From Bacteroidales bacterium (GTDB lineage: Bacteria; Bacteroidota; Bacteroidia; Bacteroidales; JAAYJT01), in assembly GCA_012522795.1 (NCBI GenBank), contig JAAYJT010000005.1:1-55466 (forward strand): DNA of 55,466 bases, given 5' to 3'. Below, in pieces: positions 25,541 through 37,011 of this stretch (position 1 is the stretch's first letter; the number at the start of each line of letters is the position of its first letter). The position numbers and the translations under genes were made by a program. The notes beneath the pieces are model-generated. The model did no database searches, was not told the origin of the DNA, and saw only the letters and a program-made list of their open reading frames with translations.

Positions 25541-25835
25541 TTATACGATTTGTATTTACAATCGCCAATGCCGATGGTTTAAATATATAGAACAATCGGG
25601 CAGAGCTATTATACGAATTGTATTTACAATCGTTAATGCCGGTGGTTAAAACATTAAGAACAATTGAGCGGAGCGATAATTGGTCTGTTATATTTTGCCA
25701 TCCGGTATAATTAGTCTGTTATATTTTGCCATCCGGTATAATTAGTCTGTTATATTTTGCCATCCGGTATAATTGGTCTGTTATATTTTACCAACCGGTA
25801 AAATTAGTATATTATATTTTTCCAATCGGTATAAA
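25541..25835 (+). repeat. Composite repeat, locus 1: two 68-70 bp heads plus five 31-bp units
   Basis: Head 1 is 25541-25608 and head 2 is 25609-25678; each starts TTATACGA(A/T)TTGTATTTACAATCG, a near-palindrome, and ends near GAGC(G)GAGC. After head 2 come five tandem units with a period of exactly 31 bases, at 25681, 25712, 25743, 25774 and 25805. The consensus begins T(A/G)GTCTGTTATATTTTGCC and ends with CCGGTATAAT; each unit has an inner TTATA/TATAA inverted pair. The last copy is the most diverged. No reading frame of note overlaps it. The intervening spacer 25836-25983 before glyA is plain AT-rich DNA. Confidence 0.9.
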
Positions 25836-25983
25836 TAATAATTTTAGAATACTGTATAAAACTAAAATCCGTTTATACTTGTTTGATTTATGAACATTAG
25901 GTGGGGAGTTTTTTAAAACTAAATCTTCCATAAATGTAACTCTTTGAATTCCATATCATAGCAAATATTAAATTTCAATAATC

Positions 25984-27261
25984 ATGAAAAAAGACAAACA
26001 AACTTTCGATTTGATTGAGCAGGAATACGATCGGCAAATGCATGGACTTGAATTAATTGCATCTGAAAATTTTGTAAGCAGTCAGGTTTTGAAAGCAATG
26101 GGATCGGTTCTGACAAATAAATATGCCGAAGGTTATCCGGGTCGCAGATATTATGGAGGCTGTATGATAGTTGATGAAGTTGAACTATTGGCAATTGATC
26201 GCGCAAAAGCATTGTTTGGTGCAGAATGGGTCAATGTTCAACCTCATTCCGGTGCTCAGGCAAATATGGCAATATTAATGACTGTTCTCAAACCGGGCGA
26301 TACATTCCTTGGACTTGAATTGTCGCATGGCGGACATCTTACCCACGGATCACCGGTCAATTCTTCAGGAATCATATACAATCCTGTTGCTTACATGGTT
26401 AAGCGCGATACCGGCACAATTGATTACAATCAAATGGAAAAAATAGCTATGCAGCAGAAACCAAAACTGATCATTGCCGGTGCATCAGCTTACAGCCGTG
26501 ACTGGGATTATAAACGTATGCGTGATATTGCTGACCAGATCGGAGCTATTCTCATGGCTGATATAGCCCATCCTGCAGGTCTTATTGCCAAAGGTTTGCT
26601 TAACGATCCTCTCATTCATTGCCATGTCGTAACCACTACCACTCATAAAACATTGCGCGGACCTCGTGGCGGAATGATAATGATGGGTAAGGATTTTGAA
26701 AATCCCTGGGGTCTAAAAACTCCCAAAGGTGAGTTGAAAAAGATGTCGGCTTTACTCGATTCTGCTGTTTTCCCGGGTGTTCAGGGTGGACCACATGAGC
26801 ACACAATTGCGGCTAAGGCTGTTGCATATCATGAAGCTCTCAGCGATGATTTTATGGAATATGCAATACAGATAAAGAAAAATGCAAAGGCAATGACAAA
26901 AGCATTCATTAACAGGGGTTATCATGTGGTTTCAGAAGACACCGACAATCATCTTATGCTCATTGACCTGCGTTCCAAATTTCCGAATATTACCGGAAAA
27001 CTTGTGGAAAACACTCTTGAACAAGCCAGCATTACCATAAATAAGAATATGGTTCCTTTTGATAGCCGCTCACCATTTCAAACTTCTGGAATACGTCTTG
27101 GAACACCTGCTATAACTACCCGCGGATTAAAAGAAAATCATATGGAAGCAATAGTGGATATGATTGACGAGATCATTTCAAATATCGAAAATGAAACTGT
27201 AATTGCTGCCGTTCGAAAAAGAGTAAATACCATGATGGAAGAATTTCCGCTTTTTGTATAA
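25984..27261 (+). CDS. glyA: Serine hydroxymethyltransferase
   Basis: The 425-residue protein is a type I-fold PLP enzyme with SHMT hallmarks: ASENFVS near residue 22, [20 protein letters not shown], and the PLP lysine K222 in [13 protein letters not shown]. It interconverts serine and glycine with tetrahydrofolate and supplies one-carbon units. The ATG at 25984 gives the normal length. Copies of the composite repeat lie both upstream and downstream in the same orientation. The gene is monocistronic as far as seen. Confidence 0.97.
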
Positions 27262-27316
27262 AATCCTTAACCAGGCTATAAAAATTGATCTCAAAGGAGA
27301 ATTTAGAAAAAAGAAA

Positions 27317-27480
27317 TTATACGAATTGTATTTACAATCGTTAATGCCGGTGGTTAAAATATTCAGAACAATTGAGCGGAGCGATAATTGGTCTGTTATA
27401 TTTTGCCATCCGGTATAATTAGTCTGTTATATTTTGCCATCCGGTAAAATTCTTCTATTATATTTTTCCAATCAGTATAA
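27317..27480 (+). repeat. Composite repeat, locus 2: one head plus three 31-bp units
   Basis: The head 27317-27386 matches head 2 of locus 1 at all but about two positions. Units start at 27389, 27420 and 27451, again with a 31-base period; the last is diverged. It is a direct repeat of locus 1 across glyA. Confidence 0.9.
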
Positions 27481-36888: not shown

Positions 36889-37011
36889 TTATAAGATTTG
36901 TATTTACAAAATAGTCCAAACTGTTTTGTAAATTTATGTTTATGGCTTAAATATTTAGAACAATCGAGCAAAACGAAGATTAGTCTTTATATTTTTCCAA
37001 TCGGTATTAGT
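36889..37011 (+). repeat. Composite repeat, locus 3 (diverged, single 31-bp unit)
   Basis: TTATAAGATTTGTATTTACA at 36889 and AGAACAATCGAGC near 36957 match the heads of loci 1 and 2. One 31-base unit starts at 36981. An extra inverted pair, TTTACAAAA and TTTTGTAAA, sits inside the head. Confidence 0.7.

Follow-up and report, generated by a model that had tools for sequence, protein, structure and literature searches.

The window analysed here, a stretch of 55,466 nucleotides from a Bacteroidales bacterium (contig JAAYJT010000005.1 of assembly GCA_012522795.1), contains five tandem units of 31 bp ahead of a glyA gene, which raises the question what this array is, how it arose and what sets its period. 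A preliminary description, made from the letters of the sequence, had considered an expanding array, a phased protein-binding site or a hairpin-forming RNA, and had proposed a genome-wide search with the 31-mer. It missed that the repeat belongs to a transposable element with target-site duplications. The array is no independent satellite. Its units each correspond to the right end of an approximately 125-bp MITE, i.e., a non-autonomous DNA transposon moved by a trans-acting transposase, and the array as a whole is in all likelihood the multiplied right end of this element. This reading is founded on the dispersed copies, their defined ends, target duplication and intergenic sites, the two-hairpin fold, the high identity between copies and the patchy distribution of the family.

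Organization of the repeat loci in the window

Tandem repeats finder output (TRF) places an array of period 31 with 5.1 copies and 91% match at 25676-25834, and a second one of period 31 with 2.8 copies at 27384-27470, the three units of which occupy 27385-27477. A 24-mer from the unit has six matches in the window at three mismatches or fewer, vs. none in 100 shuffles, and BLAST with the unit places the third locus, one unit at about 36979-37006 behind a head that starts at 36889. TRF and BLAST together confirm the 31-bp array and the 5, 3, and 1 units that had been counted at loci 1, 2, and 3. The same head had been assigned to all three loci. This holds for a shortened head (TTATACGAATTGTATTTACAATCGTTAATGCC...) common to loci 1 and 2, but locus 1 carries an extra, different head ahead of it (25541-25608) and the head of locus 3 is full-length and diverged. 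CRISPR was rejected as an identity of the array, since the units abut with no unique spacers between them. The features are as follows:

25541-25834, + strand: composite MITE copy 1, outer head A', inner head A and five 31-bp units; flanks TTA left, TAA right
25541-25608, + strand: outer head A' (TTA + TACGATTTG..., alpha subfamily, H1 shortened by an internal deletion)
25609-25676, + strand: inner head A (TTA + TACGAATTG..., beta subfamily, same H1 deletion, ends GGAGCGA)
25677-25800, + strand: four internal 31-bp units of beta type, TAATT[G/A]GTCTGTTATATTTT[G/A]CCA[T/A]CCGGTA
25801-25831, + strand: terminal 31-bp unit of alpha type, AAATTAGTATATTATATTTTTCCAATCGGTA, carrying the right terminal inverted repeat
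25832-25834, + strand: TAA, right boundary at the target-site position, discordant with the left TTA
25984-27261, + strand: glyA (serine hydroxymethyltransferase), between MITE copies 1 and 2; context
27317-27480, + strand: composite MITE copy 2, head 27317-27384, units 27385-27415, 27416-27446 and 27447-27477; flanks TTA/TAA
27687-27759, - strand: tRNA-Met, downstream of MITE copy 2; context
36889-37009, + strand: MITE copy 3, one head and one unit (about 36979-37006), target duplication TTA/TTA

A short intergenic element with defined ends

The genome-wide search was performed in the element's own assembly, which comprises 2.88 Mb in 100 contigs and is 97% complete, and yielded 53-54 dispersed matches, the best copies being 94-99% identical. 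About 45 full or partial copies of the MITE are present, which are short and non-coding as is general for MITEs; this number is a lower bound, since more than a dozen contig ends fall within a copy or next to one. The unit element of about 125 bp comprises, in order, the left end TACSAATTG (TAC[G/C]AATTG), hairpin H1, hairpin H2, and the right end CAATCGGTA. Including the flanking triplets, its basic form measures 131 bp and reads TWA-TACGAATTGTATTTACAAAATAGTCCAAGCTGTTTTGTAAATTACAATCG-TTAATGCCGGTGGTTAAAACATTCAGAACAATTGAGCGGAGCGA (head A) followed by TAATTGGTCTGTTATATTTTTCCAATCGGTA-TWA (unit B). The terminal inverted repeats are TACGAATTG / TACCGATTG in this genome (7/9 matching) and TACCAATTG / TACCGATTG in relatives (8/9 matching). 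Every copy whose context could be read, 27 in all, lies between genes, and the orientation of the copies to their neighbours is not fixed (11 ++, 5 --, 5 +-, 4 -+). Most of the approximately 45 copies carry one unit, many carry two and the largest three, four, or five, and some copies are two-headed. The array had been described as expanding, which stands as variation between loci and is backed by identical neighbouring units in locus 1.

Two kinds of reduced forms were also seen. A minimal copy of 59 bp (L108; G000 C31:52109-52167) consists of H1 alone with both ends and TAA/TAA flanks, which suggests that H1 and the ends may suffice for movement. In G462, two pairs of opposed ends of about 30 bp with almost nothing between them (C83:650-679 and C307:12869-12898) appear in the pattern list only.

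The target-site duplication is a TNA triplet

In the own genome, the flanks of the element are TTA/TTA in 12 copies, TAA/TAA in 8, TTA/TAA in 4, and the reverse in none, so that 20 of 24 agree (Fisher p = 0.0013). The flank pairs of delimited elements from other genomes are identical in 22 of 22 cases (p = 1.5e-6), in a search of public genomes whose patterns favoured TWA at both ends without forcing agreement between them; own and other genomes combined give p = 2.6e-9. A further set of matches was chosen blind to the flanks with a covariance model, R1, built from 12 elements. It has TNA on both sides in 33 of 40 fetched matches, and 30 of these 33 are identical, including TGA/TGA twice and TCA/TCA once, an agreement reached by 0 of 100,000 permutations; three of the seven remaining matches (L246, L247, L257) ended at contig ends, where the flanks were mis-sliced. 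Because TGA/TGA and TCA/TCA pairs occur besides TTA and TAA in this set, the target duplication is TNA, 3 bp in length. Both arrays of the window are among the few discordant copies (TTA/TAA), which counts against the MITE account. A look-up of an empty site at the glyA region in two congeners and in the MAG Bact_23 returned nothing alignable, the sequences being too diverged and synteny not extending past glyA.

Patchy distribution in the order Bacteroidales

Of 198 genomes sampled from the order, 21 contain the family by the covariance model, in a patchy distribution, and no copies were found in two genomes of the same genus. The pattern search of public genomes revealed the same kind of element in Bacteroidota MAGs, and matches obtained by pattern or BLAST also occur in MAGs named Flavobacteriales and Chitinophagales, the phylum-wide BLAST scan being insensitive with two candidates scored per genome. 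None was found in the viral contigs searched. Bact_23 yielded 46 matches in one search, two of which are host sequence such as glyA. Most of its elements are 76-95% identical, vs. only 72% DNA identity between its glyA and that of the window, and this comparison of sequence identities suggests lateral spread.

Origin of the tandem array

Two subfamilies are distinguished, alpha with head TACGATTTG...GAGCAGAGCGA and unit AAATTGGTCTATT..., and beta with head TACGAATTG...GAGCGGAGCGA and unit TAATTGGTCTGTT..., and the unit of single-unit elements matches its own subfamily in both. The 15 multi-unit arrays show a different composition at their two positions: internal units are beta in 21 of 21 cases, while 10 of the 15 terminal units bear alpha marks, fully in 8 and partially in 2 (p = 1.2e-5). 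The arrays do not each represent a separate event, as elements with two units also transpose in that form. Copy C11 and copy 1 of the window read A'(alpha)-A(beta)-B(beta)-B'(alpha), with several beta units in copy 1, as if a beta element sat within an alpha element at the head/unit boundary. Copies C78 and C57 have hybrid heads, alpha on the left and beta on the right, which would be the expected product of recombination between tandem heads.

We infer nesting plus recombination as the most likely origin of the array, with confidence somewhat better than even. An element of the beta subfamily would have become lodged within one of the alpha subfamily, at the head/unit boundary that lies 31 bp short of the right end, to give head-head-unit-unit; the long heads would recombine back to one, sometimes hybrid, and the short units would persist, a few of them duplicating locally. 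The junctions constrain this route. Copy C39 reads A-TAA-A-B-TAA-B, with TAA at both inner junctions, and matches a nested insertion exactly. Head-head junctions carry TTA in seven of eight cases and unit-unit junctions TAA/AAA. A simple nested insertion fits exactly only C39, because the other seven head-head junctions are TTA, unlike the inner right junction; for these, one founder event followed by spread, or else a microhomology-driven duplication, would be needed, the latter being the main rival to nesting.

In locus 1, unit 2 is identical to unit 3, and such identical neighbours suggest that local duplication occurred too. The same observation speaks for a plain minisatellite, in which replication slippage, or unequal exchange between the bounding 3-bp TAA repeats, would multiply the 31-bp unit of the MITE with no nesting at all. 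The TAA boundaries common to unit and flank permit slippage, and the four units of the C67 array are all beta. However, slippage makes neighbours alike and puts no foreign unit at one end, whereas many arrays end in a unit of the other subfamily (none of the 21 internal units bears alpha marks) and the heads are duplicated at the matching boundary. We regard the plain minisatellite as a credible but less probable account than nesting with recombination. On either account of origin, the period of 31 bp corresponds to the span between the head/unit boundary and the right end, and the extra units are most likely without a dedicated function.

A conserved two-hairpin fold

The element folds as two adjacent hairpins, H1 formed by the left end and H2 by the right end, with the 31-bp unit as the 3' arm of H2. 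The suggestion of a hairpin-forming sequence was borne out in this form, the unit being one arm of a conserved predicted hairpin. The TTATA...TATAA pair pointed out earlier is present in the units but is not the main hairpin: two units by themselves fold weakly (-7.6 kcal/mol), and the stable hairpin is that of a unit paired with the head. Among 12 diverse elements, 17 of the 45 predicted pairs are changed on both sides and 95.4% of cells pair; 0 of 500 shuffles reach the covariation score, and sliding the partners destroys the signal. A wider set, with an alignment that was fitted to the model, has double changes in 33 of 45 pairs. Ten more distant representatives, folded alignment-free as single sequences, likewise gave two hairpins, with z-scores of -4.2 to -11.6 vs. 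mononucleotide shuffles. The predicted two-hairpin architecture is conserved across the order Bacteroidales, with extensive compensatory change.

The + strand folds better in 21 of 21 own copies, in 14 of 21 others, and in 9 of the 10 distant representatives. G-U outnumbers A-C in the stems by 93 to 34, in a test inflated by the non-independence of copies from the same genome, and one G-U pair is retained in 12 of 12 elements. These data hint at a strand-specific fold, the copies being related and the test inflated. Together with the compensatory change in both hairpins, they would fit a fold selected as RNA or single-stranded DNA, where the transcribed element acts as a structured RNA, e.g., as stabiliser, processing site, or terminator for flanking transcripts; in a further part of this reading, which we consider just as doubtful, extra units would serve as alternative 3' arms. 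Against this, the orientation relative to neighbouring genes varies as given above, the Rfam search of the window found only a tRNA and no family matching the element above the gathering threshold, transposase recognition could instead keep hairpin ends, and the G-U excess is inflated as stated. We therefore consider a structured RNA possible but rather unlikely. A broader proposal is similarly tentative in all its parts taken jointly: in an order-wide superfamily, selection would maintain the strand-specific fold of the two end hairpins, be it in RNA or in single-stranded DNA, with turnover of most of the stem sequence; a TNA-targeting transposase would recognise the folded ends and move the elements, which could seed minisatellites by self-insertion.

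Two further peculiarities of the fold were observed. In L177 and L175 of Bact_23, the H2 loop (GAGCAGAGCGAT) runs opposite to the remainder of the element, as though it had been flipped between its inverted arms. Moreover, five elements (L085, L088, L099, L131, L084) contain small palindromes of unrelated sequence (CCCGATTAATCGGG, CCTGCCTGCCGCAGGCAGG, others) repeatedly in the same spacer between H1 and H2, which are perhaps nested mini-elements.

Candidate mechanism of mobilization

The element would be mobilised by a DDE transposase cutting a 3-bp TNA target. TNA targets occur in the IS1031 group of the IS5 family; the 3-bp TNA target of the element thus makes an IS1031-like enzyme of this family plausible, and it is our best guess. 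The ends of the element were absent at all 11 DDE_Tnp_1 loci examined in four genomes, and the element is not filed as an IS5 derivative. A search for an autonomous partner with the pattern TWATACSNATTG turned up nothing beyond MITE ends and isolated sites in the own genome, and none was found by terminal-repeat pattern searches of the incomplete assemblies of Bact_23 and G576/G468. The sole pair of terminal repeats at transposon distance, 1,276 bp apart in G468 with TTA/TTA flanks, was rejected as a chance pair lying inside ordinary genes. In G576, a 5.6-Mb genome of the same order, the pattern TNATACCRATTK has about 200 end-like sites, many of them in 130-bp pairs and near-identical; they would represent a recent burst, which makes this genome the best place to seek the active transposase.

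A REP/REPIN-type element moved by a RAYT (Y1 HUH) transposase would share the fold-back hairpin at each end and the dispersed, intergenic copies, but HUH single-strand transposition is not known to make a target duplication and the clear 3-bp duplication contradicts it, so that we judge this very improbable. The phased binding site of the preliminary description, i.e., a helically phased array for a chromosomal protein, is least credible of all: 31 bp is close to three helical turns and one locus has up to five units, but most copies have a single unit, as do nearly all copies read in Bact_23 (exception L199, with two), and as the period follows from element geometry, its nearness to three turns needs no functional reading.

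Relation to known elements

The nearest described case is BrickBuilt of Porphyromonas gingivalis, an intergenic Bacteroidales MITE present in tens of copies, with predicted stem loops, whose leader and tail enclose a 23-bp minisatellite repeated 1 to 22.8 times (Klein et al., 2015, PMC4596501). It has IS5-like GAGACCTTTGCA ends and inconsistent target duplications, and was reported only in P. gingivalis and P. gulae (PMC4596501). The likeness lies in the intergenic Bacteroidales MITE with a variable-copy minisatellite and predicted stem loops. However, the BrickBuilt repeat lies between leader and tail, whereas here the repeat itself carries the right end, and the present element differs by its TACSAATTG/CAATCGGTA ends, 31-bp unit, consistent TNA duplication, and order-wide family. 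Membership in BrickBuilt was rejected on the 31-bp unit and TACSAATTG ends vs. the 23-bp unit and GAGACCTTTGCA-type ends; given the differences in ends, unit, target duplications, and host range, BrickBuilt is the same kind of thing but another family. The 464/PgRS element of P. gingivalis is likewise a Bacteroidales MITE with internal tandem repeats (41 bp), set apart by description through its GAGACTGTTGCA ends and other unit length (PMC4596501). MITECca01 of Cardinium is a Bacteroidota MITE too, about 240 bp long and in many copies, but it is derived from IS982, a known parent, and no tandem unit is reported there (PMC9769881). Foldback-type transposons such as Tetris of Drosophila virilis, parts of which gave tandem repeats (PMC4079207), are eukaryotic and offer an analogy only. 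A literature search by sequence strings did not find the family described among the papers listed, nor do the available parts of a review on prokaryotic MITEs (PMC10969869) and of the Cardinium MITE paper (PMC9769881) describe it.

Significance of the element

The element is ordinary in kind, being a MITE; less ordinary are its order-wide conserved two-hairpin architecture and the readable record of a transposon end turning into a tandem repeat. In practice, MITE copies break short-read assemblies, and here more than a dozen contig ends are affected. In the window, glyA is flanked by two direct-repeat copies in the same orientation (25541-27480), and recombination between copies 1 and 2 would excise the gene. 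The analysis defines a MITE superfamily for which no description was found in the searchable literature and whose two-hairpin architecture is conserved across the order. Should the strand-specific folding prove true, one would have to ask if the hairpins function in transposition or for host transcripts. Finally, the arrays offer a concrete sequence-level route by which a transposon end may become a tandem repeat in bacteria.
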